Shown: positions 1 through 63,094 of the stretch, in pieces
Layout of the letters: the number at the start of each line of letters is the position of its first letter
Numbering within the stretch: the stretch's first letter is position 1
Source: Brachyhypopomus gauderio
Lineage: Eukaryota > Chordata > Actinopteri > Gymnotiformes > Hypopomidae
Reading direction: 5' to 3'
Assembly (NCBI RefSeq): GCF_052324685.1
Contig: NC_135214.1
Span: 29,671,206-29,735,205, forward strand
DNA length: 64,000 nt
Notes under the pieces: generated by a model
Database searches by the model: none
The model's input: only the letters and a program-made list of their open reading frames with translations
Told to the model about the DNA's origin: nothing
Program-made: the position numbers and the translations under genes

Positions 1-3699
<3,699 letters not shown>

Positions 3700-3700
<1 letters not shown>

Positions 3701-4423
3701 ACTAAAGTCTCGTTATGTACTACAGCCCTCTATCGCGTGATCTCCATCCTAGGCCCACCGCCATTGCAAAGAATTATTTGTAAGTATTTTGCCATATTAG
3801 AGTGTTTTGCATGTTTAGGCAAAATAAATTAACGGGTAATAATTTGTTTAAGCATGCGCTTTATCTTTAGTAATTCCGGAAATTTCTGTGTCAATTCAAG
3901 CGCGCAAAAAGTCGGCATGTAAGTTTCAGGCTTCAATGTTTTGCTTCCTATCAAGGCCACAGTTATTTTTATTATTACAACGCCGACAACTCTCACGATA
4001 TATGTTAACATTCGGCCGTGAAACTGGTTATCCGGAATATCTTTTGGTTCAAAATGCATTGGCTAGCTATCTCCATAATCACTTATCTTCAACTGCGGCG
4101 TAGGCAGTTAGCCGGCTAGCCAGCCAGCTAACACTCCTACCAGGTGGCTTCTGTGTTGCGTTTACTTGAACACGGGACGGAAAACGCCGCGAAAATACGA
4201 ACGCCGTCTCGTCTTATTGCTGACCACTCGCCTCATGTACCAGAAACGAGCGACCCACACATCCCCACGGAACCTCCTAATACTGGAGCCGTAGCTAACA
4301 GCAGTAACCGAAGCGCCAGGCTGCGTTTACAAGTTCAAGTGAGATTCGCCTGTTATGACAACGACTTTTAATTTCTGTTCACTGAAGGTGCAGCTTGACT
4401 TTCGAGCGACGTGGGTATTCATG
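3700..4423 (+). promoter_or_regulatory. gid8 promoter and 5' untranslated region (approximate)
   Basis: This stretch is richer in CpG than the DNA on either side and ends at the gid8 start codon. A possible donor (AA then GTGAGA) near 4340 and a possible acceptor near 4386, just upstream of the coding ATG, would fit a non-coding first exon. The exact transcription start is not visible. A short open frame at 4144-4371 looks like untranslated first-exon sequence rather than protein. Confidence 0.45.
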
Positions 4424-6132
<1,709 letters not shown>

Positions 6133-7979: not shown

Positions 7980-8758
7980 CCACCACCAATCTTGGCTGTT
8001 TTCTGGGTGAATCTTGGATCCATACGGGCTCCAGTAGGTCTTCTGCAGTATTTGCCGCGGCTGTGGTGTAATAAGTAAGTTTGGTGGTGGAAAGATCATG
8101 GTCTGGAGTTCCATTCAGTATGGGGGTGTGCGAAACATTTGCAATGTGGAAGGCAATATCAAGAGCCTAAAATATCAAGAAGTATTAGCTACATCTTACA
8201 TTCACAATCATAAAAGGGGTCAAATTCTGCAGCAGGATGGTGCTCCATCTCATACATCAAAGTTCCTCAAGGCGGAGAAAATCAAGGTGATCCAGGACTG
8301 GCCAGCCCAGTCACCAGACATTAACATCATTGAGCATGTTTGGGGTAGGATGAAAGAGGAAGCTTGGAAGACAAAACCAAATAATTTTGACTGCATTCTT
8401 TGCTATTCCTGATGACTTCATCAATAAATTGTATGAATCATTGTTGAACCGCACGGATGCGGTCCTTCAAGCTCGTGAAAGTCATACAAAATATTAAATA
8501 TGGCTCTAATAGCACCACAGCGGCATTCACCAGTGTTATGAAGCATATATTTGTATATGAAGTGAATTATTTGTTTGATTTTCACCTTACTTTCTGTGGG
8601 TGACAAAACTTTTGTCTTGCCAAAATCTGCCCTTTCTGTGTTCATTAAATGATCAATATTTCTGCAGTAAAGCAGAATCGATGAATTTAAAGTCAGGTTA
8701 TAAGCTTTTGTTTCCACAACATGGATAAGCGACATAACTTATGTCAGGGACTGTATAG
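7980..8758 (+). pseudogene. Tc1/mariner transposase relic (C-terminal part)
   Basis: A frame at 8098-8412 encodes the catalytic half of a Tc1-like transposase. QQDGAPSHTS carries the second catalytic acidic residue, and DWPAQSPDINIIEHVWGRMK carries the third (an E, in the DDE pattern). A frameshift near 8390 moves the remainder (PDDFINKLYESLLNRTDAV and onward) to another frame, and the N-terminal DNA-binding half is missing. Downstream sequence to about 8758, ending in CAGGGACTGTATAG, looks like the element's right end. It is a dead copy, unrelated to the host genes beside it. Confidence 0.85.
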
Positions 8759-10794: not shown

Positions 10795-13800
<3,006 letters not shown>

Positions 13801-15660: not shown

Positions 15661-16429
15661 AAAAGGTTTCTGTCACACCATTGACCGTTGTTTCCTTTAA
15701 ATGTGGTAATGTCCGCATTTCACACCCCAATCCCCCAGAATACTAGGCAACTGTACGACCACTGTACCGATGTCGCTTCTACGGGAGAGCCGTTTTGAGT
15801 CGTTTGTGATATTAGTGTATATGTATTTACAAGCCAGCCTATATCACAAATTTGTATTCATATTTCCCTGATACTAAAGCGTCTGCACATGATCACAGTT
15901 GGTTGGTTTTGTTATCATCTGAAGTGTAAAATGGTAGAAAACATTTAATGCATTCTGATTTCTCTGTTGTCAGTTGTGCACAGTATGGCTGCTTACCCGT
16001 GGTGCCACCCCAGAGTTCCCTGTCTCTCTCACAGTAATCATGTTTATTGGTGGGGAAATCAGTGGTTGACAATGCTGAGTAAAGTAGCTGAAACAGGAGA
16101 TTCAGCTGAAGGATGCCTAGTGGAAGGAAACGAGAACCTCTTATGATAATTTGAAACTGGCCTAAACATCTTTAGACATGCAACTGCTCAGCACAGCACA
16201 ATACTTACAAGCATGATTCCTTCACACATCTATAAATGTTTTTTACTTAGTGCCTTAGTCTATAACCTAACATTAAGATACTTTATACTATTGTAATTCT
16301 GTGTAAATACAAGGCTATTATAAATGACAGGATATAGATTTTAAAGTGATGCACTAACATCCATCCTTTACAGCTTTTACCATATTCATATTCTTTTTCC
16401 ATTGTAAGTCTTGTGCCATTATTGCCAGT

Positions 16430-17145
16430 CCAGAAAGGTGTGTATGTACATATGACTTTGAACGTGGCGTGGTTGTTGGTGCCAGACAAGCTGGTCTCAG
16501 TATTTCAGAAACTGCTGATCTACTGGGATGTTCACGCACAACCATCTTTCTAGGGTTTACAGAAAATGGTCTGAGCGGCAATTCTGTGGGCGCAAATGCC
16601 TTGTTGATGCCAGAGGTCAGAGGAGAATGGCCAGACTGGTTCGAGCTGATAGAACGACAACAGTAACTCAAATAACCAGTTGTTACAACTGAAGAGCATC
16701 TCTGAATGCACAACACATTGAACCTTAAGGCGGATGAGCTACAGCAGCAGATGATCACACCGGTGCCACTCCTGTCAGTTAAGAACACGAAACTGAGGCT
16801 ACAATTCACTCAAGCTCACCAAAATTGGACAATAGAAGATTGGAAAACGTTGCCTGGTCTGATGAGTCTCGATTTCTGCTGCGACATTCGGATGGTAGGG
16901 TCAGAGTTTGACGCCAACAACATGAAAGCATGGATCAATCCTGCTTTGTATCTACGGTTCAGGCTGGTGGTGATGCTGCAATCGTATGGGGGATATTTTC
17001 CTGGCACACTTTGGGCCCATTAGTACCAATTGAGCATCATGTCAACACCACAGCCTACCTGAGTATTATGACCACAGTGTACCCATCTTCTGATGGCTAC
17101 TTCCAGCAGGATAACGCGCCATGTCATAAAGCGCAAATATATACA
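16430..17145 (+). pseudogene. Tc1/mariner transposase relic (N-terminal and middle part)
   Basis: A frame begins with a Tc1 helix-turn-helix segment (VGARQAGLSISETADLLGCS, then RTTIF). It continues in shifted, stop-interrupted frames through the linker and the first catalytic region, up to [12 protein letters not shown] at about 17,100-17,135, which carries the second catalytic D. It then stops abruptly in a (GT)n(TA)n(CA)n microsatellite and the third catalytic segment is absent. Several in-frame stops show it is dead. The same family is found at 44.1-44.55 kb. Confidence 0.85.
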
Positions 17146-17151
17146 TTTGTT

Positions 17152-17261
<110 letters not shown>

Positions 17262-19215: not shown

Positions 19216-20010
19216 AAGCCTGGTTTATACTTTCGTGTGACCATAGCGTGTGACTCCGCCCACCTCGCGCGACCCTGCGCGACCCTGCGCGACCCTGCGC
19301 GACCCTGCGCGACCCTGCGCGACCCTGCGCGACCCTGCGCGACCCTGCGCGAACAGTGTAGGCGTTTATACTTTCCGCGCGTCGTGTTCTCCGAAACGAT
19401 ATGTGGTAGTATAAAGAAACACCCCTCAAAAACAGGGGAAGGAACATTTACTTGATGAATTTTAATGTTGCTTTCGGTTTCAAGTTTGAAAGTGCTGGAA
19501 TTTAGGCTAAAGTACTTTAAAATGCTTGAAATTGTAACTACTTTGTTTCACAACAAATATCTGTCTGACAGAACAGTTCTCTTGTATTACGTTAACAAAT
19601 ACGAGCCTCTTGTAATTCCAGGACGAAACATGAGAGAACGTGAAGACGTTAAGATTTGGCGTTTTGAAAATAAACCACCATTAAATAATGTGATTAAAAG
19701 CGAATTATTTCGAATCATTTCGAGTATATGTATAAATATCTAACTTATTTCAGTTTATCGTGCTGGGAAATATTGAAATGGACCTTGAAAGTGACTTACA
19801 AGTGCTTTAATTCCACCTTGTAAAGGTGTATGAACCCTGCAAACATGACTTTGTTCATTGCGCGTGGCGCGCGCAAAGTTACAAAATTCGAGAGGTGCAC
19901 GACCTCGCACATCCACTGCGCGCGAGGCCCTCACGCACGGGCGGAGCCACAGCGATGACGTCATTTTCGCCGCGCGGACCCTCGCGACGCGTCAAGTACA
20001 AACCAGGCTT
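19216..20010. mobile_element. non-autonomous DNA transposon with internal 10-bp tandem repeat
   Basis: The two ends are near-perfect inverted repeats: AAGCCTGGTTTATACTT on the left, and AAGCCTGGTTTGTACTT when the right end is read on the minus strand (16 of 17 identical). TA flanks both sides. No transposase frame is visible inside. Near the left end lie eight exact copies of the decamer GACCCTGCGC. From about 19,360 to 19,985 the interior is shared with a second, nested copy at about 51,308-51,960. Superfamily is uncertain; the flanking TA would suit Tc1/mariner-like integration. Confidence 0.75.
19271..19350. repeat. 8 exact copies of a 10-bp unit (GACCCTGCGC)
   Basis: Eight consecutive identical decamers lie inside the left arm of the transposon at 19,216-20,010. 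The unit resembles the CGCGCGGACCCTCGCG sequence near the right end. Frames through it give repetitive Arg/Pro-type peptides on both strands, which are not genes. Confidence 0.97.
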
Positions 20011-22302: not shown

Positions 22303-23641
<1,339 letters not shown>

Positions 23642-26874: not shown

Positions 26875-27276
26875 CTAACTATTAGATCTCTTCCCGAGAG
26901 CTTTGAGCAAGTGCTGGTTCATCATCGCCTTCTGTGACATCCTCTCTGCTCTCGATGTCTCCATCAGTTCCCTTAACATGTGGAAAGTGAGGTCCAGCGA
27001 TGTCGGTTTCCCAGGCAATAACCTCCTTGCCCTCCTCGGATTGTTCTTGTGGACGTGAGGCCGTTCCGTCGTAGTCTCGGGGAGAAAAGCTGCCGCGCTG
27101 GTGAGAAACGACGAGCCCTCCTCCGCGCCGCCGTCCGTCGGCGATGCGCCGTGCTGGAGACCTCGCACGAGTTTGCTGCTGTGGTGAAACCCCATAGCAG
27201 CAGCACTCTCAGCACTCCATAGTAAGCAGGTTAAAAGGAGCGCGGCACACAAAAAATGGGCAGTTGTTCTCATCAT
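26875..27276 (-). CDS. crh2: corticotropin-releasing-hormone family prepropeptide (CRH2/teleocortin-like)
   Basis: A secreted neuropeptide precursor of 133 aa encoded in one coding exon. Residues 1-27 form a signal peptide (hydrophobic AALLLTCLLW core). A short cryptic propeptide follows. Dibasic sites at 81-82 and 84-85 release a peptide of about 42 residues (86-127). It contains PTSLDLTFHMLRELME, the CRH-family signature (SLDLTFHLLRE in CRH), and RAERMSQKAMMNQ, matching CRH RAEQLAQQAHSN. Gly128-Lys129-Arg130 is the amidation and cleavage signal; three residues (SNS) follow, whereas CRH precursors usually end at GK. The start was chosen because a strong acceptor (CTTTTTCTGTGCTGCCCAG) lies 2 bases before the ATG. 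CRH genes have just such an intron in the 5'UTR, with the whole precursor in the last exon. The upstream frame is intronic. Position between dnajc5 and tpd52l2 argues for the CRH2 paralogue rather than crha, crhb or urotensin-1. Family membership is very secure; the paralogue name is an inference. Confidence 0.9.
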   Translation of the reverse strand: MMRTTAHFLCAALLLTCLLWSAESAAAMGFHHSSKLVRGLQHGASPTDGGAEEGSSFLTSAAAFLPETTTERPHVHKNNPRRARRLLPGKPTSLDLTFHMLRELMETSRAERMSQKAMMNQHLLKALGKRSNS

Positions 27277-28399
27277 GACTGGGCAGCACAGAAAAAGAGT
27301 TAAAACACTTAGCACAGGATTATTCAATTATAGATACAAGTGATTATTCAATTACATTTGCCTATTTTGTGAATTTTACATTTATTAACTATTTTATGTA
27401 AATGTATACTGACTTTTGGTTAATTTCCTTAGCCTTTTTCTTTCTGGCTTTCGTAGACCCCCTACACTAGTGTTACACTTACCTAATGTTTTATGGTAGC
27501 CTTTGTTTGACTGATTAGCAGCAGATTGGTGATTTATAGTTCCTACCCCAAACGGTGGAGTCCTTGAGGATTTAGAAGTAGTGCATTTTAAATCACTTCA
27601 TATTCACACTTTACCCAAGGGTCCCATATGATGTAAGGAGAGAATTGGGATACTTTGCATCAGTGAACTGAGAATGGATTTATTGAAAACAGACCTAAGA
27701 CAAGGGAACAGTTTTTGCAGACTGCTAACATTAAGACCTCAAATCAGCCCGTAAACGTGCTTTACCTGTAACCTATTGTAAATTGGTAATATGCCCTTCA
27801 AAATTGCTAAAAATCTATTAAAAATGGATGAAAGGCTAATGTAATTAATCAAAATCGTCTCATTAAGGCACAATTCCCAAGGTCAGCTGTTAAATTCCCT
27901 AAATATTTTTGGTTTATTTCCCATTTGGGTGATGCTGTCCAAGTTCTGAGAAAGTGTGCCTAGCTGTCAAAAGCAATGCAGGCTCCATTCCTGTCATACT
28001 GTGCAAAAGTGGTGGACAGCTTTGACAGTTCTGGGGTTTCCTTCTAAAGCAAAGGTGTTTCAGTTCTGAGCTTGGGGTCACACAGCCAGATTTTTGTTTG
28101 TTTGTTTCCCATGATGCCTGTGATGACGCGTTCTGCCTTTGAAGTGAGTTTGGTGCTAGAACAGTAAATAAATGTAGACTAGGGATCCATGAAGAAAGAA
28201 ATAGTCCTATTTGTGACATGGTATTAAGCCTGCTTTGCCCCTCTTATAGTTAATGTAACACACTTAAAATGGTTTGCTTATAGTGGGTTCATACCCCTTT
28301 ACTTGACGCCTGACACAATCTGTTGTACATTGCCTTTTCTACCCATCCACCTACACTTAATCACTCAACCAAGGTGAGGACATATTTTTGAAATTTCTA

Positions 28400-30914: not shown

Positions 30915-33553
30915 ATGGATTCAGAGAACCGAGGTAAAGTGGCCAAAGAGATTAGCTTAACACGAATGTGTTCCGATACATGTCAGCTGTAGCCTACTTT
31001 GTTAACTAGCCAGCATAGCTAGCTATCTATCTCTTGTTAAGTGTAAAAGTGTAAAAGTAGAGAACGAGTAAAGTGACCTAGCGGTAGTTTGTCGTCGATT
31101 GTGAAGCATTTATAAAATGGCTCGTTGCAATAATTTGAATGAAAAAACAACAAAAACTTGGCCGTGTTACAATATATTTGATTGTTTCGGTCAGTTGTTA
31201 ACTAAATTTAACTAAGTGAGCCTTCTTTCCATGTTTACTAGAGTAGGCATCACGATGACACACAAATCCGTGTCCGTCTCTGAAGTCTTAGACGCTTATA
31301 ACACTGACGTGTAACCGGCTGTCCTGTGTGGTTTGGGTGTAGGCTTCTCCACCATGAACACGGAGAGCGCCAGTGGCGGAACCCTGCCCCCAGGCATGAC
31401 CGAGGATGAGTCGGTGGAGGTGCAGGTGGAGCTCTTCAAGGTACTGACTGCACTCTCGGGCCTCCCAAACCTCTCCGCTCCCATCGGACAGCGTTTCCTG
31501 CTCACCTCCACAGGAAACTCCAGCCTGTCCACTTTCTTTTTGTGCTTCATTGCCTTATAATTAACATTTTCATTGCTAAATCGATGATGCAAGGTGGCTT
31601 AGGCTTAGAAGCGTGAATGATGTACAGTATTTTAAGTCATGTTTGCATGCAGCTGTGTTGCTTATTTTGTACTTGCCTTTTCCAGGTGGAGGAGGAGATT
31701 CTGACACTTAGGCAGGTTCTTGCTGCGAAAGAGAGGCATGCTGCAGAGCTGAGGAGGAGACTGGGTATAAACCCTCTCTCTGAGTTTAAACAGAACATCA
31801 GCAAAAGCTGGCAAGAGGTCCAGTCCTCCAACGCGTGAGTACTGAAAGGCACTCCCTCTTATCCTTAAGTCATGATTGATTTCTACACAAATGTCCTCCC
31901 CGTAGCCATAGGAAACACCTATTTCCAGCTTCGCTTTTATGGGGATTTCTTTTTTGGCCATTCATCTGTTCATCTGTAAACTTGATTTTATGGTGTGAGT
32001 CTAGATCACTTTTTCCCTGAATCTTTCTCTCCATCTCTAGAGTTGTCTGTTAACATCCTGTTAGGGAACATAGCAGCTAGACTTGATGTTTCTTTCTTAT
32101 TATTTTCTTCACAATATTTCTTCTTCTAGTTATATGAAAACCTCACAGACTCTTGGAGACTTGAATGACAGAGTTAAGTCATCTAACCTGTGAGTTTTCC
32201 CCTTTACTTACTTCCCTAACGTGTACGTGAGAACTAATACTTCTCCCTCAGACAAGTTAGGAGTTGGCCTGATTGTCCCTTCAGTTATGGCTAACATATT
32301 TGCCTACTAATATATGTGTAATTTACTAGAATAATGGAAATCATTTGCCAAGTTCTGGCCTATCAAGTCATCTAACTATACTTTTTGTTAGCGCTAACTG
32401 AACCTGGCTAACTTCTATAACTTCATGATGGGCACTCTAGTCACAATTTAAGCCTACAGGAAGTTGACTATATTAGAAACTGAAATTATTTTTAAAGGAA
32501 TATCCATTTAACATTTATGAATGCCACCTAATGTTTGTTATACATGGCATTTTGAAACAGAAAATTTTAAAATGTCAGGAGAGACAGTATCAGAATTAAA
32601 CAGGATCCAGACATTTCCTGGTGTTTCCATTATTTTCTCTTCTCCTCGCATGCAGTCACAACAGTATACTATCTCTGCTAAAATTCCTACATATATTTTT
32701 AGGCTGTGCTATATCTGAGAACTTAAGTAACAATTTCTCTGAAAAATGAAACCGTTCTTTTGCTTCTTATTTCCCCAATGATATTGAAATTGTTGGGGTT
32801 TTTTTTTTTTTTTGCTTAAAGTCAGAAGCTTCTTGGTTGGGCAAAGACATCTGTGCTATGCTTTTTTTAGCAACTGGAACACTCGTACACAATTAGATGA
32901 ACTGAAGGTGAGGAATGTGACTTCAGCTCAGCCTGTGTGTGACGCTTTTTCTTTGCAGTTACCCAGTCATTAAAAAACATTTCCTCCCAGTACATGGAAG
33001 GTTGAAAATGAATGAGGTTATGTTGCAACATTTGGTCAAGAAAGAGAAGTCTAACCTGTTTTAGGAATCTGTCAACTTTGAGGGCTGGGCTCATGTGATG
33101 ATGTTTACATAATACTTTGTATACCTAGACCTTAATAAAGTCCCACAGATTTCCTAGCTAACCCAGTTTTCTTTTATAACCAGGTTTAAGAAAAATATTT
33201 GTATTTGAAGCTAAATGTGTTTAGTTTGACCTATTTACCTTTCCCCTTTTTATTCTTTTATTGTCTTTTTCATTTCAGTGTAGACCAACTTTTGTTTTTT
33301 TTTTTTTAAAGTCCTTTTTTATAAAAGTCCTGATCTACAACTAAAGCTGGAAGTGTTGCCACCACCACAACAAAACTGGGAATTGTGATATGTTGATAAA
33401 ATTAGTCACATAAATATATAGGTGCATAAATATATAGTCATTATGAAATGTTTATTATTAATAAACATTTGTTTCCTTTTACAAAACACCATAGTTTATC
33501 AGTAAAACATATACATTGTCATAATGTAATTTGAAGATTTGTTTATGCCTGCT

Positions 33554-33588
<35 letters not shown>

Positions 33589-35838
33589 TTATCTTACAGC
33601 TTCTGCTACTTTGGATGACATTAGCCACTCCGATGCGTGAGTTTGATTCTTCTGTTGTATTTAATTTTAATGTGTTCTGTGTCATTGTAAATTTGTCTCA
33701 GTTCTATTCGGACGTTTTGAAAAGATTCATTTAAATTTCCTAAAGCTGTCTTCACAGGCTGAATGTTTAGGGTCGAAGATGAAAGAATTAGTGATAATTC
33801 TTAATCATGGAATTATTGAAGTAGTAATTTATATAGTAGATTTTTCACAGGATAGGGCACTTTCAAAGCAAAGTATAAAAAACTAAAAAGCAAAATGACA
33901 AAATGCAACTAATGCTTCAGTATTAATGAAAATAAATTTAAACTACAGCTGATAAAGTATAATATAGTATAAAAATGTTGGCTTGTATTTATTCTTGAGC
34001 GAGGAGAGACTTGGAGTCTCACGCATGGTGGAAGAAGGTGTTCCAGAGTGTGAGGACAGTAGCACTGAACGGTTTAGTTTAGTGTTTGGATCTGGCTGAG
34101 GGAGGCATGAGGACGTGAAGCAGAAGGAAGCTCAGTTCAGACTGCAGAGGGCATATCTCTGTTAGCATTGTGACAGGTATGCTCTGATTTTATTAGTATT
34201 AACATTGCCGCAAAAAAAAAAAAAACATTGGAATTAGTTGAAGCAAATTAGTAATTTGAGTTAACGTTTATATTTGAAGGTGGTTTTAGATCCTTATAAA
34301 AAAAGAATATTTTTTGTGTTCTATAAAGTTCCCTTCATTATTTCCTTAATATTATTTTTAGTAATGGAGTCTAGAGCAGAGAATGTGAATATTGGTCTCT
34401 TTTTGTAATTTTTCAATTACTTTTTAATATGTATAATAATTAGTGGTGGGGCGTTAACGGCGTTCGTTAATTTGATACTCTTATCGGGCGATATAAAAAT
34501 TATCGCCGTTAATCTATTCTTAAAGTTGGGTTGGGAAATGGATCAAAATGGGTGAGCAAACTATGATGAGTTTCAACTTGATAGTTTAGCTCGGCTGTAT
34601 TCCTAACCAAATTGCACAGTAGGGGCGAGAACGAGTTTTCAAACCTGTGAATTACAAATCGGACGTGTGTTTACATGGATGCAGCCACGAAGTCGCCCGG
34701 TTTGCTTCATGGAAAATTCATTTTAGGAACGTAAAGTGTTATTGGAGCGGAGCTCGGAGCGGTCGTTTTCTGCACGGTCCTAGCGCTAGATTCGTCGATA
34801 TTTAAATATTTCTTTTTAACCGTTAAAACTGCAGAGGACCAAAACCGGCTTTTGAAAAAGTCCCCCCCAAATTACTTCCGTGAGGTTAAATGTACTAAAT
34901 ATTGGCTTACATTTCAAATATCATGTTTAGCTGAATAAACATGTTATCAACCCCTTTTAATGTACAGTATGTAGGCTTACAAATTCATGTTTAACTGAAT
35001 AAACCGTTGAACATGAGTAGCCTACATTTTATTGAGCATGTTTTTTTTTCTTCAAGTATCAAAGTAGAACAGCTTTCTCAAGCAGTCATTGATGCATTTT
35101 GGAAACAGGAGATGAGCCCCTGGTCTAATGCACCCTCTGTATTAAGAAACCCTATCTCAAAGACTGACTTTTAGTCATTACTTGGGTAGCACGCATATGA
35201 GCCATTTTTATATAGATTAATCTAAATTAATTTCAAGATTTCAGTGAGAATAATCTAGATAAAAAAATTTAATCTATGCCCACCCCTAATAATATGTGCT
35301 ATTATGACCTAGTCATACTAAGGCTGGTTAGTTATGTCTTCTGAGGTTTGATGAGAATATTGACTGTTGCTGACATCTAAAATCTGTCATCCACTTTAAT
35401 CTCTCTTGCTGGGTCAGGCCTATTATGGTTAGGGGTTGTCCACAATTTACCTCTGAAAGTGGAGAGACTGGTTGTTCTTGCCCCATTCCCACGTGCAGGT
35501 TTCCTCCGCCCCCCTTCACGTTGGCTTTGCTCTGGTGCGTTGCCGCACGCGTGCTCTGAAAGATACCCAGCACACTGGCACAAACTTAATGTGCTTTTCT
35601 TTGTTTTGGGAAGGTCACACACGTGGACAAATTGACCTTATATGCTCTTGCTTGTGGTCGCTCTGCGTTTCCAGAAGTTGTCGACCAACCCTTTTGTTGT
35701 TTGATGACTCTTGGCAGAGCTGTTGTACAGACGTTTCAAGAGCAAGTGAACAAAAAGGTTCTCGAGTGCACAGGACAAAATCTGAGTTCGCAAACCTCTC
35801 TGAACGAGATTGCAGCAGGTTCAGTTTGAGCGTTCTCT

Positions 35839-35876
<38 letters not shown>

Positions 35877-38634
35877 ATCAAACTCGTTGAAAGTGCTCTT
35901 GAACCTTGGCGAGTAAGCAAATGCCATATGGAGGCATGTGCCACGGTCGGGAAGAGCATGCAGAGCTTGTAAAGTGTGTGGAGGCAAAGTGGATGATTGT
36001 GGCTGTAGCTCAGCCAAGCCAGTGGAGTAGGACGGGAAGTTGTGGTCTCCCATCAGCTCAGCCATGTGCATAGGAGAACACGCCAGGGGATCAGCTGATG
36101 GCACTGGGAGTTTAAACTGGCTGAGTGGCTTCTGATAATAGCATCTTATGACTAAGGTCATTGGGAAGGGCATTGGAGTTGCTGTGTGTTTTGGAGAGAT
36201 TACTGTATAGGCATGGGCTTGTAGGAGACTGAGTAAACTGTAAGCAACGTCACACTGGTTGACCTAAGGTCATGTCTGAAAAACAGGTGCTTGTTTGACT
36301 CAACTGTGACCCTCGGTCATGTTGCTGCTACTGCCTACGTTTGGTAAACCAGTGACAACTGTGATTTAATGAGGACTGAATCTTTTTGATTTGTGTCTAG
36401 GTGTTGTGGAAGTATACAGAGTCCCTGTGCCTATTGTCCTCTGTTTGGTAGCTAGAGAAGTACTTTTGTTTCAGTTCACAGAGGAATTAGTAGTATATGC
36501 AAGTTGAACATTTATAGAAGAACCCATTTAAACGCTATTGTAACCCTAACCTTAAAGCTAAATATATCCTAGTTAAAAAACGATTTTAGTCTTAATCCTG
36601 ACCAGCCTCACAAAGTGTATACTCGTTTGCCATAAGAGAGACACAGACATCTAATCTCTCGCATGACTGGTGCAGTTTTTCCTCTTTCAACCAAGCAGTT
36701 ATTTTTGAGTAAAAAAAAAGCTACAGTTTACCAATATTCTTGTCTACTCAGCAAGCTGTGTGAAAGAGCATCTTCCACCTCTCTGCAGATATAAGAAGAC
36801 ACAAGAGACCCTCTCCCAGGCTGGTCAGATGACCTCATCAGCTTTGTCCACAATGGGCTCAGCCATCAAGAATAGACTAGGAGATCTGAGGTAAGATTTC
36901 TCTTCCTTTATTTCACACTCATCTCAATCAGTTTTCCTTCTACACCTTGACATTTTCTTTCCTCTTTTTCATTGTCCTTTAATCAACTTAATGTTCTTGA
37001 TTACTAACTACACTAATGCATTTCTTAAAAATCTAAATTTTTCATTGAGAAATGTTCTAATTTGACTGTTGGATCTAGATTGTCTTTTGCTGACAAGCAG
37101 TAAATGTTTATTTAAATCCTCCAAGCACAAAAAAACACTTCATGATAACCTTGGATTTTTTTTTACATATTATTTTAATATGTCAAATCCACAGAAACAG
37201 CTACAAATAAAGAGTATTTCCATGTTGTCACAACACTACCAAATAGGTGCCCTGTACGAGAGGTCCAAAGGCTTGAGTTGAATTCTGTGTTTCATAATCA
37301 TACAAAAACCATGTTTGCATGTTGCATTAATAATCTCATGAATGGGAATTTGACCTGTCTTGTAGTGTCCTCTGTACAAACAAACACTACACCTGTGCAA
37401 ACAGACCACAGCCTGCCTTTCCAGTTTCATTAGAAAGCAGTGATGCATTTTCCTAGCTCTCAGACTGCCTCTCATTTCACCTTTTCCTCACAACCGATTT
37501 GACCTTTCATACGAAGGTGTGCTCCGACAGTAACTCCTTAGCTGGACCAGTTGTTGCCTTTTATCCATTGAAATGCTCCGTTGTTTATGATTTTGTTTCC
37601 TTTATTGCTGCCTTGGAATGGTCAGAGCTCTAACTTACACTAACCCACCTGGGTAAGATCCTACTGAGGACCTCCTTCATACAACCCATAGCTGTAGCCG
37701 AGATTTTTGTCATTTCTGTTACACTTGCTGATATTGGTCGGTCTGTATTGGTTACATAACACACCTGCTGCCTATAGTTGATTTGCTGTGGGTTCTTTGC
37801 TCTGTGCTCGGCTAACCTTGTCTGCCTGCTTTAATGCTCCTGCCTCTGTTTCCGCACTGCTCCCTGAAGTAACAGCTATAACGGCTACTCCATGCGCCAG
37901 TCCCTAAGTATGCCAACTATGAGGTAAAGTACCGGGTGCTCCAGGTCTCTCAGCCAAACTCTTGCCTCTCGGCGGTGGGTGTGTCCGGGGGAAGCTGGGC
38001 TGAGTTCACCCCTGCTCTCCCTCAGACACTGTTCTCCCGCTGCGACCACACCTCACTCTCAGTCTCGGGCTACATCTCCACTGCACTCTTCTCAAACGCG
38101 CTGATTTGGCTCGCGCAGTACGGGTTAGCCCCAGTACTTGAGACTGAGAACACACATCCTGTATTAACAGAAGTTCATGGCAAATATCTAACAGCTTTTT
38201 TTTTTGTTTCATTCTTGTTCTTCAGAACTACACATGTGAGATGTTTCTTTCTTTTTCTTCTGCATAATTGTTTAAAATCTGAAATCTCATACATGGCAAG
38301 ATTTTTCGGTTTGTTTTAGGAGTGCATTTCTTAACTTCCCTTAGGAACTCATCGACCTTTAAAAACATTGAAGACAAAATGGTAAGCATTGCAAGTGACG
38401 GCCTCATTTTTCAAAACATTATGAAATTATTACATAACCTATTCACAATGAATCTTAAAGCTCATAGTTTCATATTGTCCCTGACAACTTTTAGATGCAC
38501 TGCACACAGCTGTTATGATCAATATACATGCATTTTCACATCTGATGACTCTTTGTTGCTTTAAGACCAAGGCCATGACGGGAAAATCAGATGATGACAC
38601 ACCTCCCCCACCTGGCGACAACTCCACCATCTGA
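30915..38634 (+). CDS. tpd52l2: tumor protein D52-like 2 (D54), 8 coding exons including one alternative
   Basis: This is a D52-family coiled-coil protein implicated in vesicle trafficking and small-vesicle association. Exons are 30915-30933, 31343-31440, 31686-31834, 32130-32189, 36789-36890, alternative 37870-37923, 38345-38381 and 38566-38634. The frame closes at 195 aa with the alternative exon and 177 aa without it. Hallmarks are a short divergent N-terminus, the coiled coil VEEEILTLRQVLAAKERHAA (from residue 40), LYKKTQETLSQAGQ, and an acidic and proline-rich C-terminus ending DNSTI. The alternative exon encodes SMRQSLSMPTMR, matching the alternative SIRHSISMPAMR segment of human TPD52L2. 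It has two possible in-frame acceptors six bases apart (after AAG at 37,869 or CAG at 37,875). The 4.6-kb intron holds a hAT element. L2 rather than tpd52 or l1 is chosen from the alternative exon and from dnajc5 next door. Confidence 0.95.
33557..33589. repeat. (GT)n microsatellite in tpd52l2 intron
   Basis: About 16 GT dinucleotides inside the large tpd52l2 intron. Confidence 0.95.
34441..35288. mobile_element. hAT-like non-autonomous DNA transposon in tpd52l2 intron
   Basis: The left end reads TAGTGGTGGGGCGTTAACGG and continues TTCGTTAATTTGATACTCTT. The right end, read on minus, is TAGGGGTGGGCATAGATT, a matching inverted terminus. The internal AATTATCGCCGTTAATCTAT is characteristic of a hAT family common in fish. 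No transposase frame is present. An imperfect 8-bp flanking duplication (ATAATAAT against ATAATATG) is consistent with hAT insertion. Confidence 0.65.
35841..35871. repeat. (TC)n microsatellite
   Basis: About 15 TC dinucleotides in the tpd52l2 intron. Confidence 0.95.
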
Positions 38635-40069: not shown

Positions 40070-40141
40070 TTCCCTGACCGGGAATCGAACCCGGGCCGCG
40101 GCGGTGAGAGCGCCGAATCCTAACCACTAGACCACCAGGGA
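40070..40141 (-). tRNA. tRNA-Glu (anticodon CTC)
   Basis: The 72-nt minus-strand sequence begins TCCCTGGTGGTCTAGTGGTT (containing the A box) and has the B box GGTTCGATTCC. The acceptor stem TCCCTGG pairs with CCAGGGA-type sequence at the 3' end (TCAGGGA), and the discriminator base is A. The anticodon arm CGGCG-CTCTCAC-CGCCG places CTC at positions 34-36, reading GAG codons. There is no intron. A run of four T on the minus strand (40,064-40,061) provides the Pol III terminator. All arms are intact, so I judge it functional and not a SINE head. Confidence 0.95.
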
Positions 40142-40567: not shown

Positions 40568-42124
40568 GTATGATTCACTTAGATTCGTTTTAATTCAATA
40601 CATTTTTGAAGTTAAAATGTGCCACGTTTTGTCATTAACTGGATTTTATGTATGCGACGTGTAGAACAAAAATGTTTAGTGAACTTGGGACCTGCCATTT
40701 TGTGTTTAGAACTTACTGAAACTTATTTTAAAACGATTTTCATCTCAATGTTTCTTTGTTTTCAGCCTCAAGATGAATTAATGGCCTAGTATTTGTAAGA
40801 CTTGCTTCAGATGTTTAAAAACTTGACGTTTGTCTCTCCTCCCTGTCTATTTAAAAAAAATGTCTAAAACCTACACTGTAGAACAGTTTACACAACCCTG
40901 TGGTGTGATTGGTTTATCCTTGAGACTGTTTACCTGCTGTGTAACACATGCAGGTATTCTGTAGGTTTGGCTCGAAATCCCTGGTCCTGGGGTGTTTCCA
41001 TGTGCTTGGTTCTACATGCTGTCAGCAACTGTATCTTTTAGAAAAATGTAAAAAAAAAAAACAACCAAAAACCCAAACAATATAAAGACTCGTATATGGA
41101 TGTGCCATTTAACATAAAAGTCCTTTTTGTTTGTTGTTACCCTCTGCACTTTTCCAACTCGTACATGATTAGTGATAATAACATGTTTATGACGGTTTTG
41201 GAGGATAAAGTTGCCATAAAGGCTTATGTTTCTTATCATACATTTCAGGTTCACTCCACTGTCCATTATCTCAGGTGTCATCTTTGGTTTTAATACCAAA
41301 TTTTTCCATGTTCTTAAATAAAGCATTAATCTTCTCATGATGATAGGGTGTACACTGCAATTCAGAGAAATGTATTGCCTTTACAGAACCACCTCACCTA
41401 GAGCAGGCATTCTTCCCTGTCTCTAAGTCAGAAAGGACTAATGTCCATTGTGCTTTATTTCCATGTGCAAACACAACCTCGGTGAGTCATTGCAGTTCAG
41501 TGCATATAGGGCTTAACGAGGACACCCACATGGTCTCGCTGTCCTTGTCCTAGCCAGAGTGCCTTTCTTGGTCCATTGGAGAGTTCCACGCAGTGTGAGC
41601 TGACGCGTGCGCACCCTCTGTAGCCCTTTTGGGGCCTTTTCAAAGCTAGGCGGATAGGTGGACTCGGAAATCCAACTCTCCTGACTGCAGCTGTCTGCAT
41701 ATGCCATTAGAGTCCGATCCTAAGGAAGCATTTGCCTGAGATGGTCATCGGAAAACGTTCTGACTGTGCTGCTAAATGTAGTGCTTACTTTTCTGCAAAT
41801 ACTCTGTGAAATCTTACTTACTCATCAGCAAGACACATGCTAGCTGACCAAACCTAACCACCAGTGCACATGTTGTGTGAGCATCAATGTCCTGCTTCAC
41901 AGGAGTTGTTATGGGTTCTAAGTTGAGACCACTAGCAAACTTCTGTCTTTGCAGGATGCTTTCTGAGCTTTCCTGTCCTGCTGGGGAAAGCTATTTTATT
42001 CTGCTATAGTCATGTGGCATAAGCATCTGACCCATGCCTCCTTTCTGTCCCATCATAACCATTCCTATCTTCCACAGGGAGGGTTTTCATCTTCTCCTCG
42101 GTTAACACTTGAAGGTTAGGAAAC

Positions 42125-42850
42125 ATGGCAGCTATTCCATCTGGAGGCTCCCTCGTTGCAACCCATGACTACTACCGAAGTGAGTTCTCAACTCTTACAT
42201 TTAGCATATGTTATGTTGTATGTTTACATATATTTCATATTTTTAAATCTTTTTTTCTGCACATAATGGACTTGAAGTGGTTTACTCAGAAGTAACCTCT
42301 CTTTGGCGTTTGTCTATTTACTCACTGTTGATGTAAATGTTTCAGGGCGCATAGGATCAACATCCAGTAACAGTTCCTGTGGCAGTTCGGAGTATTCTGG
42401 GGAAGTCATTCCACACCCCCCAGGTACAAACGCAAGCCATTTATTTATTTCTATTAAATTCTGTATTAAAATTTTAAGATCACTGCCTAATGTATTAGGG
42501 TATTATGGGATCCATTTGCAGGTCTACCCAAGCAAGATTCAGGTCACTGGTGGTCCAGTTTCTTTTTTGGGAAACAGATTCAGACAGTTGTTCCAAATGG
42601 ATCTGACACCCAACATAAGTGAGTCTAATGGAGTGGCACTTTGACTGCTAGTTGATCGCATGCATCTGTTTCCCTTGGTGACTCCTTCCTGACTGGCTGC
42701 CCTGTGGTTGATAATGTTAGGACTGGAACGTACACGCTGGCTAACGGTCAGGTGACTTGCGTGGCCCAGAACATGGTGGTGAAGAGGAAACTAAGTGACA
42801 GCAGTGACTCTGGGAAGCAAGAGATCACCACCAACCCCCCTGCCTCCTAA
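42125..42850 (+). CDS. ppdpf: pancreatic progenitor cell differentiation and proliferation factor, 4 coding exons
   Basis: A small, probably intrinsically disordered vertebrate protein, first studied in zebrafish as exdpf, where it promotes exocrine pancreas differentiation downstream of ptf1a. Coding exons are 42125-42179, 42346-42423, 42522-42618 and 42721-42850, all GT-AG and phase-consistent, giving 360 nt and 119 aa (human 114). The start MAAIPSGGSLVATHDYYRRR, the serine-rich GSTSSNSSCGSSEY block, and the motif GHWWSSFFFGKQ are the conserved family core. The C-terminal third (VKRKLSDSSDSGKQE) diverges from mammals, as usual. It sits downstream of tpd52l2 in the same direction and tail to tail with ptk6. 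Confidence 0.96.
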
Positions 42851-44099: not shown

Positions 44100-44560
44100 C
44101 AATAGCGCATATACCGAGACACACTTACCACTTACCTGTTCGAACGGCTTATTAATGCAAACATCGAATCAGCTAATCCCATGAAAGCAACACAGTCAGA
44201 AAATGACACTGGGGATTTCACACACAACCATCTCTATGGATTATAAAGAATGGTCAGAAAAAGAGAACAAGTCCTGTGAGCAGCAGTTATCTGGGCAAAA
44301 CTGCCATTATTGATGCCTGAAGGTCTGAAGAGAATGGCCAGACTAATCTAAGCTGATAGAAAGACAATGATAACTCAAATGACCCCCTATTACCACTAAG
44401 GTATGCAGAAGAGCATCCCTGAAAGCACAACACGACGAACCTTGAAGCAGAAGGGCTTCATGCCAGCTGCCACTCCTATAGACCAACAAGGCCATAGCTT
44501 TGTTGTTGCTTGAAAGGGAGTCTAACCCAATACTAGCAAGGTGCACCTAACACACTGGCC
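44100..44560 (+). pseudogene. Tc1/mariner relic, same family as 16.4-kb copy
   Basis: Stretches such as AGAGAATGGCCAGACT followed by GAGCTGATAGAA-like sequence, and the AAGAGCATC-CTGAA-GCACAACAC block, align base by base with 16,620-16,770. Every frame has stops. This is a degraded middle segment only. Confidence 0.7.
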
Positions 44561-47845: not shown

Positions 47846-53118
<5,273 letters not shown>

Positions 53119-54940
53119 TTGGGCAGATGTGTGAGGGAAGAGAGGTAGAGACGTTCGTAGTGCTAGCGCTACATACACTTTCTGTGAGATCCCTGAGATG
53201 CCATTCCAACGAAACGCAGGGCAAATGGGAGGAGCAGATGAAAACCAGTGTAACATAGAAGGAGTACGGACTGCATGTGTGTCAGCCGGACAGTCCGGTT
53301 TTAGGCTACAGGGAAACATGCACAAACATCGTGTCTCTCGTTTCGTTCAATTTTAGGCCCACCTAACCTGTGCAGGGAAAGTCATGTACAAAATCCCTAT
53401 GGAACACACTAATTTGTCTTATTGACAATGTTTCAACCCTAACCTGTACATATCCTCTGCAAGATTTTATTTTCAATGTTCACCTTTTCGACTCTGGTAA
53501 TATATGAACGCGACAGATAACACAGACTGACAGACTGACTCTGCAACAGGACCACCAGAGAGGATGAAGTAGGCTACACCATATTGGTGACACTCAACAC
53601 ATTACTACAGAAGAAAGATAGATCACATACCCCTGCAACAAAAATAATGTATTTACTTCAAGAGCACCCGTAGTTACACGCTCACATATTTTCTTTTCAT
53701 TGGCTTAAGTGTTTTAATTTTCAACTTGGAAAAAAGTTGGCTAAAATGGTTTAAGTACACTCTAAATATTGTTTATTGATTATTATTAATGCACGTGCTG
53801 ACTCTCTCGGGGAACAGTCTAGCCAGCGTTAGTTTGTAATTGCGTTGTTTTCCCTTAACTGGGTGTAAATTGAGTATGGATCTGGACTCTTTTTTTTTTG
53901 CTGTGCAGTTATATTCTGTGGATATGAAATTGGACTGAAGGCTCGACGTCTGATCGCTCTGAATGGAAGGCTAACATATATAACAAAAATACACTAACGA
54001 TCGTCTTTTCGTTAATTGCTATCAAAGGAACATATTCAAGATATATATTCATTCAAGATACATATTCAAATCACATATTCAAGCATTTTGCCTATATGTA
54101 GAAAGTCCATTTACAACAAGCCCTCAAATCTCAGTCTCCACTCATTCATAAATGGATATAGCCTACTGAATACAACTTCAGGGCCTTTTACTACTATCAT
54201 CACTATTTCATTGGACACCTCATAATGCTTTGATATGTTTACCTTAAGCTCATACCCAAGGTTGCATTGATTAAAGCGCTATGTTCTCAATTACTCTGTA
54301 GGACATAGGTGCATTTTATTACTTTTTCTATTCACCAAGGAATTTTGACTAGGCATAATGCTTTAATAAACTCAAATGCATCCCAATATGCAACAGTGTA
54401 ACAGCTGAGCAACGTAACAGCTGCGTAGCGATGTTTCCGCATGTCATCACTCTCTCCTGTAGTTGAAACTTGTGAACTAGTGCATGGAGTTGGCAGGACA
54501 GTCAAGGCGAGATATTGTGATGTACCAATTAAATTAAATAGTGAAAACGATAAACGATTAGGTGTAACCCCACCTGACCTACATAGGTAAAACTGCTCTG
54601 TAAAGTTCCACATGGAGTGTATGCAACCTTTGGTACATTGATAATAAATAGTACCCCCCCCCCCCCCCCCCAAGTAAAAAATACTAAATCCCCTTAGTGT
54701 ATTGCTCTCCGTAGTTTAACTATTGTAGTTTCTGTCTATTAAATGAAAATTTAATGCTGAAACATTGCAGCATGTTGCTTATAATGAGCTTTCCTGGCCA
54801 ATTAAGCACTATGGTGAAACAGTGGTGAAACAGGGTGCTGTGTTTACAAGTGACTCCCAAACATGAGCGTCCCCAGAGCCGGACTCCTGTGGTGAGCTGC
54901 TGAAAGTACAGGCAGGGCGCGGCATGATTGATCAGTTCAC
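53119..54940 (-). other. ptk6 upstream region and spacer to nol4l
   Basis: No coding exon is recognised. The part nearest 53,118 must hold the ptk6 5'UTR and promoter, but no TATA box or clear initiator stands out. A poly-C run lies at about 54,653-54,671. Confidence 0.45.
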
Positions 54941-59985: not shown

Positions 59986-60206
59986 TCAGTTCTGCTGCAG
60001 GATGAGGTTCTCCAGCTCGTCGGCCGAGCGGAGCAGGAAGGCGGCGGACTCGCGGTACCCGGCGATGAGCTGCCTGACGGCGCTCACCTCGGGCGGGCTG
60101 AGCTGGGCAGATGCCCCCCCGCCCCCGCCGCCCTGCCCGTGGCTGTTCGAACTGGACGATGACGACGAACTGGAGCCCAGAGACTTCATGCTGAGATCGG
60201 TGGGGC

Positions 60207-60251
<45 letters not shown>

Positions 60252-61143
60252 TGCATGAGGAAGACAGGGGACAGGAGGTGGAGGGAGCAAGGTCTGTGTG
60301 CAGTTCAGGTAAAATGAACTTGCCACCAGCAGACACTTACCATTGCTCTGAGTCGTCCCGCTGTTTGGCAGGCTGTTGCCTAGGGTCCCGTAACCACGGA
60401 AACTGTAATTGAGCCCACCATTGGTGTAGAGCTGGTCTTGGGAGTAGGTTGAGGCAGCCAGTGAGAAGCCTGAGTGGGCCAGGGCAGCAGGGTCCCTGGA
60501 ATTGGGCTTATCTGCAGTAATGGGCTCATCCTGCAGAGGGCAGTAGGTGGAGCATGGCAAGAGAGAGACGTACACAAAGTCTATTAGTTGGGCTCATCCT
60601 GCAGAGGGCAGTAGGTGGAGCATGGCAAGAGAGAGACGTACACAAAGTCTATTAGTTCTGAAAACCAACCAAAAAAATTCAACAACTACCATCAATTATC
60701 ATGTATTACTGCTGATCCAGTTTAAATCTCAAAGCACGGGCAAATGTGACTCATTCTTTCTCAGTTCTTTAGTGACAGTTCAAAGCCATATTACTTTTGA
60801 ATTCAAGTATTATGCCTTATTTTTATAAGTGCCTTATTATGTGCCTTATTATTAAAAATTGGCAACTCTCCCAGTCCACTTTGTTCTCTTAGAGCTGCAT
60901 CTGTAGACTCTGACAGCAGCTGTGAAGTGGATGTGAATTGCAGAGAGAAACTTGTAATGTCAGGTTTAGTTTTCCCCATATGTTTCTGCATTTTCAGATG
61001 CATTTTAGGAGCAATTTTTCTTGTTTTTTTTCCACTACACCCTCCCCCCCCCACACTCACATATACACACACACACACACACACTCACTCACTCACTCAC
61101 TCACTCACTCACTCACTCACTCACTCACTCACTCACTCACTCA

Positions 61144-61209
<66 letters not shown>

Positions 61210-62843
61210 CACACTCACACTCACACTCACACTCACACTCACACTCACACTCACATGGCTCTGGTAGATGTCGAGGCGCATCCTCTTGGCAGCGTTGCGT
61301 GTCTCACTCTCACAGGCAGCTGCCAGGATGTTTTCAGCCATGGCGGAGGTGAGATGGGGGGGTGTGGGCCGCGTCTGACCACAGGAAGATGGACATATGA
61401 CCAGAGTGTCAGCACACCACAGCTATTATGCAGCTTTTTCAAGCCTCTCGAAGAGATCTTAAAAGCAGTGATCTCTTGAATCATGTTATTTGGTCTAAAA
61501 CAAAAACAAATACATATTTTTTTTCAATCCAGGAATATGTCTCTTCCACACATCTCAACTGACTAGAATTGTTAAGCACATTAACAATTTATATAGCTTA
61601 TCTTATAACAGTAGGAGCAACTACAGATATATGCTCCACTGTGCAGATGTTTTTGACTAAACTGAGGTCAGCACTGAGTTAAGGTGAATGACAACATTGA
61701 TAATGACAACAGTAAACAGTATTCCTAAGCTGTTTACCTAAGCCCACTCTGTAGATCTATGCAATGAATTCATCTTAGGTATTATATTAGGTTTGTCTGC
61801 CCGATTATTTGAGTTTGCCTAGCAAAGCCTGCCACATACATCCAATCCTGTCCAGGCAATAAACACTATGTGCTTTCGGATCAGACTACAGTCACTGAAG
61901 AGCCCTCCTGCATTATGGCAGGTCAGACAGGATGGTCAACCTTAAACACGTGTGACCTCAGACCTCACAGCTCTCCGAGGGGCTTTTTTAGATGTGTAAC
62001 ATGCATGAATTTGGATTAGAGGGTCCGCACCTCGAAGCCTCCCTTCTTCATACGTCTGCAGGACTTGAGGTAGGTGCGGATGCGTTTGCGAGCGCGCTCC
62101 TGAAACTCGGGGAACTGCCGGCCACAAGACTCGATGATGGCCTGGATCTTCTCCTTCGGCTGCTTGGAGATCGGCACCATCCGGTCCAAGTTCTCATCCA
62201 CAAACAGCCGCACGAACATCTGAGAGGAAATTACAGTAAATTTGAGCAAATGAGAGTAAATGAGAGAGAGAACAGGCAGAGAGGGAGAGGACGAGAGGAG
62301 AAAGTGGAGGAAGGAGAGGGGATGTGGAGGAAACAGAGAAAAAAAACAACAACAACAAAGATGGGGCCTGCCGTGCTGCTTCTTAACCCTAACCTTCTAA
62401 AAGGCCTCATGAATACGAGATGGCGGAGAGATGGGCGAATGTTGTTCATGAAAAATAATATGAAGACAGAGAGGATGCTGGGAAATGGAAGCGCAGAGAA
62501 ACGTATGGGGAAACGAAGGCGACTGTGGGAGACTTTAAGATGAAAATGAAGTAAGTAAGGAGCACTCAGATGTATGATGCCATGAGCAGGAGAAACACGT
62601 AAATGTAAACAAAGAGACTGTTCAAGGAGGCATGAAGAAATGTTTGATTAATCTTACGTTGAAAGCTTTGAGTCTCTCGGGGTCCAGGCCCTCTGCATCA
62701 TTAATCTTGTCGCTGTCGTCGTGATCATCGTGATCGTCGTCGTCATCATCCATGACCTGAGCGCGTGGTGTGTTCAAGTCCTCCGCACACATGCTGACTT
62801 CGGTCTTAACTGAGTCATAGCTTCCTGAGCTGTACTGAGGAGA
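59986..62843 (-). CDS. nol4l: nucleolar protein 4-like, C-terminal 5 exons (5' end beyond window)
   Basis: A nuclear protein of the NOL4 family. Exons read on minus are 62843-62658, 62219-62031, 61374-61255, 60530-60341 and 60206-59986, all GT-AG and in phase, giving about 301 aa. In order they show [14 protein letters not shown] and an acidic Asp/His run; [48 protein letters not shown] (basic, NLS-like); [55 protein letters not shown] (a PxDLS-type CtBP-binding motif); and the conserved end [33 protein letters not shown] and [12 protein letters not shown] fit NOL4L better than NOL4. Three of its splice sites are made of simple repeats and one acceptor is duplicated. The N-terminal exons lie past 64,000. 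Confidence 0.95.
60209..60246. repeat. (GA)n microsatellite forming a nol4l polypyrimidine tract
   Basis: Nineteen GA on plus, read TC on minus, end directly in the CAG acceptor of the last nol4l exon (60,206). Confidence 0.97.
60521..60656. repeat. 68-bp exact tandem duplication covering a nol4l splice acceptor
   Basis: Bases 60,521-60,588 and 60,589-60,656 are the same 68-bp sequence. Each copy contains the minus-strand acceptor CTGCAG followed by GATGAGCCCA, the start of the fourth exon present here. Confidence 0.95.
61060..61254. repeat. compound microsatellite (AC)n(TCAC)n(AC)n(ACTCAC)9
   Basis: The block consists of AC repeats, about 16 TCAC units (61,083-61,148), more AC, and nine exact ACTCAC hexamers (61,201-61,254). 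Read on minus, the hexamers are nine GTGAGT copies starting at the first intron base after a nol4l exon. Confidence 0.97.
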
Positions 62844-62852
62844 CTGGACACA

Positions 62853-62899
<47 letters not shown>

Positions 62900-63094
62900 C
62901 AGAAATAACATCTTTAATTCATACACGGAAAATCCAGTGAAATCCCTTTTTTGGACTTATGATACTGGATCACACCATGTTTTCTGGCATCACCAAAGAG
63001 ATCACTAAATACAATCACTAAGCATCTCTAAACACATCACTGACACGATCACAAAATAGATCACTGATCTGATGACTAAACATCACAGCTTAAA

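Follow-up and report, generated by a model that had tools for sequence, protein, structure and literature searches.

A probable crh2 gene among its ancestral neighbors in a 64,000-base genomic window

The window, by which we mean the whole 64,000-base stretch of DNA analyzed here, carries gid8, dnajc5, crh2, tpd52l2, ppdpf, an SRMS/PTK6-type tyrosine kinase gene, and nol4l, in that order and within 59 kb (Table 1). Vertebrates have repeatedly lost CRH2, the second copy of CRH, which is the brain's main stress hormone. The gene that we read as crh2 lies on the minus strand (start ATG, 27,276-27,274; stop, 26,877-26,875) between the plus-strand genes dnajc5 and tpd52l2, where an earlier note had placed a complete CRH-family precursor; its 133 codons are intact, and the CRF domain (PF00473) is recognized in its product with an E value of 2.1e-8 and 34.6 bits, exceeding the curated Pfam cut-off of 22.1.

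Table 1. Features of the crh2 locus and its neighbors (positions in the window)
Feature	Position	Strand	Basis or remark
gid8 (some exons)	4343..5777	+	Pfam CTLH, E 8.6e-9 and 1.1e-14; LisH under cut-off
dnajc5	22303..23641	+	201 aa, intact; exons 22303-22412, 22513-22726, 22999-23170, 23532-23641
Candidate polyadenylation signal, AATAAA	26739..26744	-	Consensus match only
crh2 CDS	26875..27276	-	133 codons plus stop, no interruption
GKR amidation/cleavage site	26887..26895	-	Sequence; followed by SNS and stop
Predicted mature Crh2 peptide	26896..27021	-	42 residues; precursor residues 86-127
RRARR proprotein-convertase site	27022..27036	-	Precursor residues 81-85; sequence, function inferred
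Predicted signal peptide	27199..27276	-	~26 residues; hydropathy; cut site inferred
Predicted 5'UTR intron	27279..27482	-	204 bases; AG|GTAAGT donor to CAG acceptor; consensus match only
Candidate TATA box, TATAAA	27533..27538	-	Consensus match only
tpd52l2 (some exons)	31315..36891	+	Pfam TPD52, E 3.1e-22 (31617-31835) and 2e-11 (36709-36891)
ppdpf	42113..42847	+	Pfam PPDFL, E 9.1e-12 (42276-42458)
SRMS/PTK6-type tyrosine kinase	47849..53346	-	SH3, SH2, and kinase exons; either SRMS or PTK6
nol4l	59989..62918	-	Pfam HTH_NOL4_2nd, E 1.6e-39 (62019-62396)

We read the CTLH gene as gid8 and the TPD52-family gene as tpd52l2, the L2 assignment resting on its neighbors. Pfam gave no match for one piece of tpd52l2 (31315-31557) or one of ppdpf (42656-42847), and no NOL4 match for three pieces of nol4l (59989-60336, 60189-60593, and 62625-62918). 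The outer limits of ppdpf were set from the PPDPF sequence; likewise, we take the last gene to be NOL4L in preference to NOL4 from the human sequence and from its position. GID8 and NOL4L both lie on human chromosome 20. The dnajc5 product scored 195 bits to solved DNAJC5, and its top match under another name scored 79 bits. We looked closely at which dnajc5 copy this is because dnajc5 relatives are also described near crh1 and ucn1 (PMC9353778). Neither DNAJC5B nor DNAJC5G chains were found among its 43 solved-structure matches; it is the other neighbors, and not the structure-match scores alone, that exclude those two identities.

A study of the human 20q13.33 locus included DNAJC5, TPD52L2, PPDPF, PTK6, and SRMS in the set of genes that it tested (PMC7839675), and dnajc5 and nol4l are named as neighbors in the crh2 region of ray-finned fish (PMC9353778). 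As identified here, then, the neighbors point to the CRH2 paralogon, on human chromosome 20, and to neither that of CRH1 nor that of UCN1. Of the genes that bear on assignment to crh2a or crh2b, the two copies from the teleost duplication, commd7, trim101, and nkain4 were not found by Pfam in 30 hand-picked neighbor pieces.

The window also contains repeats and mobile-element remnants. A Tc1/mariner-type remnant with a DDE_3 domain lies at 8038-8409 (+), and another, with helix-turn-helix matches under the Pfam cut-offs, at 16358-17020 (+); a 108-base piece at 44277-44384 is 79% identical to the latter. Two copies of a dispersed repeat (19383-19990 and 51361-51953) share 88% identity across ~600 bases, the second sitting in the SRMS/PTK6-type kinase gene with coding exons on both sides, and a 37-base unit repeated 6.3 times (50374-50605) adjoins an exon of that kinase gene. 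An exact 24-base pattern taken from the dispersed repeat gave 0 matches in genome_contigs and in viral_contigs. Three compound microsatellites, in which an AC or TG run abuts an AT or TA run of 33-40 copies, occur at 3321-3426, 10799-10926, and 17148-17249. Compact genes, Tc1-type elements, and microsatellites point to a teleost as the likely source of the window, and a bony fish is very probable. A tRNA-Glu (CTC) gene or tRNA-derived element (Rfam, 56.9 bits) lies at 40070-40141 (-) between tpd52l2 and ppdpf, and a perfect 68-base tandem duplication at 60521-60657 overlaps the presumed start of a nol4l exon.

The crh2 reading frame stands out from the rest of the window. We scored stop-to-stop segments of at least 20 aa in all six frames with a small profile of the CRH family, constructed from six peptide sequences: among 2,107 segments, the precursor came first at 36.7 bits, and the runner-up reached 7.2. 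In 50 randomized windows (112,618 segments), drawn from a first-order Markov model that keeps dinucleotide content on average, the maximum was 12.3 bits, and we rejected a chance ORF on this basis. The coding sequence has a GC content of 0.55 and a GC3 of 0.65; the adjoining 500 bases on either side have 0.28 and 0.36. A search of NCBIfam returned 0 families, the null result expected of a bacterial and archaeal library.

Candidate signal, RRARR, and GKR processing signals are all present in the crh2 product. The signal peptide was judged by hydropathy only, the peak of the precursor being an 11-mer at residues 9-19; the middle part of the precursor has no Pfam match. The predicted mature peptide begins with LLPGK and carries SLDLTFHMLRE. 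That N terminus and the 42-residue length had been put forward as unusual. The length is ordinary: eel and gar Crh2 have 43 residues and the coelacanth and shark peptides 41 (PMC9353778, PMC6727040, PMC4602089). LLPGK falls in a stretch that has been modeled as a variable loop preceding the helix (PMC9353778). The three-residue SNS tail after GKR, also singled out, is a minor peculiarity that is not known to have any effect.

Candidate splice signals are consistent with a two-exon gene. A polypyrimidine tract followed by CAG ends at 27,279 (-), as the earlier note had indicated, and 27,482 (-) carries an AG|GTAAGT match to the donor consensus; we regard the donor as suggestive but unproven because AGGTAAGT occurs 3 times in the window, counting both strands. 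As consensus matches, donor and acceptor fit a layout in which the precursor lies wholly in exon 2, as described for chicken CRH2, whose two exons keep the coding region entirely in the second (PMC6727040), and for gnathostome CRH-family genes, with a noncoding exon 1 and the whole precursor in exon 2 (PMC7406891). Exon 1 would be just ~25-30 bases long, provided that the TATAAA at 27,538 is a genuine TATA box. A full CRE (TGACGTCA) was not found in the 1.3 kb upstream of crh2.

Peptide comparisons place the product on the CRH side of the family. The best match of the mature peptide among solved structures was human CRH (37.6 bits, E 9.9e-9), followed by CRH analogues and then by urocortin 1 (24.8 bits); chains of urocortin 2 and urocortin 3 were absent among the 9 matches with E values up to 10. 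Across the CRH-family peptides compared, identity was highest to human CRH (19/41), followed by sucker urotensin I (15/41), sauvagine (14/40), human UCN1 (13/40), UCN2 (11/38), and UCN3 (9/38). Eel Crh2 is described as 54% identical to human CRH1 and 36% to UCN1 (PMC9353778), and the window peptide, which likewise ranks CRH above UCN1, resembles it in these values; the same source gives far higher identities to human CRH1 for the eel (86% and 95%) and salmon (76-82%) crh1 peptides.

Sequence motifs agree with this placement apart from a few substitutions. Members of the CRH1/CRH2/UCN1 subfamily are described as sharing an LTFH(L/I)LR core and, outside the UCN clade, an S-L-D motif (PMC7406891); the window peptide has both, with a single substitution (Met at the L/I position). 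The Arg near the C terminus, described as conserved in the CRH family (PMC7406891), is replaced by Gln (NQHLL in the window peptide versus NRKLM in human CRH), which we judge to be a point change and no family-defining loss, and the C-terminal residue is Leu, not Ile or Val. Together, the Gln and the terminal Leu could alter receptor affinity. Ten residues of human CRH are listed as receptor contacts (PMC9353778); after alignment to the human sequence, 7 of the 10 are identical in the window peptide, and the other 3 are hydrophobic swaps (L14M, V18L, and L19M).

Because its neighbors are those of the CRH2 paralogon, we identify the gene as crh2; synteny decides the matter, and it bears out the CRH2 reading proposed earlier. 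An ortholog of the CRH2 genes of gar, sharks, sauropsids, and basal mammals that has kept its ancestral neighbors is, in our assessment, very probably what the window holds. Such a gene would give a two-exon mRNA spliced just 5' of the ATG, and its precursor would enter the secretory pathway, where it would be cleaved at two places, after RRARR and at GKR, and would be amidated. The resulting 42-residue helical peptide would act on the class B receptors CRHR1/CRHR2 and raise cAMP, probably locally or as a neuromodulator, and not as the chief stress hormone of the hypothalamus.

The most serious alternative, which we nevertheless consider unlikely, accepts descent from crh2 but supposes that the gene is decaying or silent. 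Repeated losses of crh2 among teleosts and its weak expression in eel (PMC9353778) lend this idea some weight, as does the missing near-C-terminal Arg; against it stand the intact ORF, with its signal-like segment, convertase site, and amidation site, and the GC3 of 0.65 between AT-rich flanks.

That the gene might instead be a teleost duplicate of crh1 (crh1a, also called teleocortin, or crh1b) seems to us very improbable. Human CRH1 is the nearest of the compared peptides, and the crh1 paralogon also holds dnajc5-family genes (PMC9353778), but gid8, tpd52l2, ppdpf, the SRMS/PTK6-type kinase gene, and nol4l mark the CRH2 paralogon, and 19/41 identity to human CRH falls far below the values quoted above for the eel and salmon crh1 peptides. 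We rejected the crh1a/teleocortin identity in particular, the gene lying in the CRH2 paralogon and not at a crh1-paralogon position. The label "CRH2/teleocortin-type" in the earlier note merges two genes: according to PMC4602089, teleocortin is medaka crha (crh1a), with no separate teleocortin gene. A ucn1/urotensin I identity is extremely improbable. Common family membership and a shared LTFH-LR core speak for it, but the window peptide has SLD where the compared urotensin I and UCN1 peptides have SID, its UCN1 score among solved structures lies 12.8 bits under its CRH score, and the markers described for the teleost ucn1 paralogon are different ones (mpv7, trim54, nkain2, and eya4; PMC9353778).

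The earlier note had cited a proposed loss of CRH2 in teleosts, a view overturned in 2022, when crh2 was described in elopomorphs, osteoglossomorphs, clupeiforms, gonorynchiforms, characiforms, and gymnotiforms, in species that include European eel, tarpon, milkfish, Mexican tetra, electric eel, and herring (PMC9353778). With survival of crh2 in several teleost groups already published, the window gene is real but mostly expected. The same report gives no crh2 in the Siluriformes (catfishes), Cypriniformes, or euteleosts examined; there is only a small chance that the host belongs to one of these lineages, and if it does, the loss would be neither as early nor as complete as published. Our search of the open-access literature, which was not exhaustive, found no further reports of teleost crh2. 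An intact crh2 among its ancestral neighbors contributes one more data point to the record of fish that retained the gene, and it would be of greater importance if the host belongs to a group believed to have lost crh2 or if the altered C terminus shifts receptor choice.

As for function, chicken CRH2 is described as active and as preferring CRHR2 (PMC6727040), and eel crh2 expression as weak and widespread (PMC9353778); in gar brain, crh2 is confined to one hindbrain nucleus. Taken together, these observations favor a local, modulatory role over control of the pituitary stress axis. Since eel crh2 is weakly expressed, the function of crh2 may also be modest.

Set beside known systems, the window gene resembles the teleost crh2 genes described in PMC9353778 in its single-exon coding precursor of similar length (149 aa in eel, 133 in the window), its predicted amidated peptide (43 aa in eel), and its dnajc5 and nol4l neighbors; unlike eel Crh2, it has a peptide shorter by one residue and a GKR-SNS tail. 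With chicken CRH2 it may share a two-exon structure with all coding in exon 2 (PMC6727040), and with both chicken and spotted gar CRH2, the latter with a 43-residue peptide, it shares conserved CRH2 synteny (PMC6727040, PMC4602089); it differs from them, as they are described, in the Gln that replaces the conserved near-C-terminal Arg. Teleocortin, whose peptide is active on both receptors, is likewise a CRH family member, but, unlike the window gene, it is a crh1 duplicate and belongs to another paralogon.
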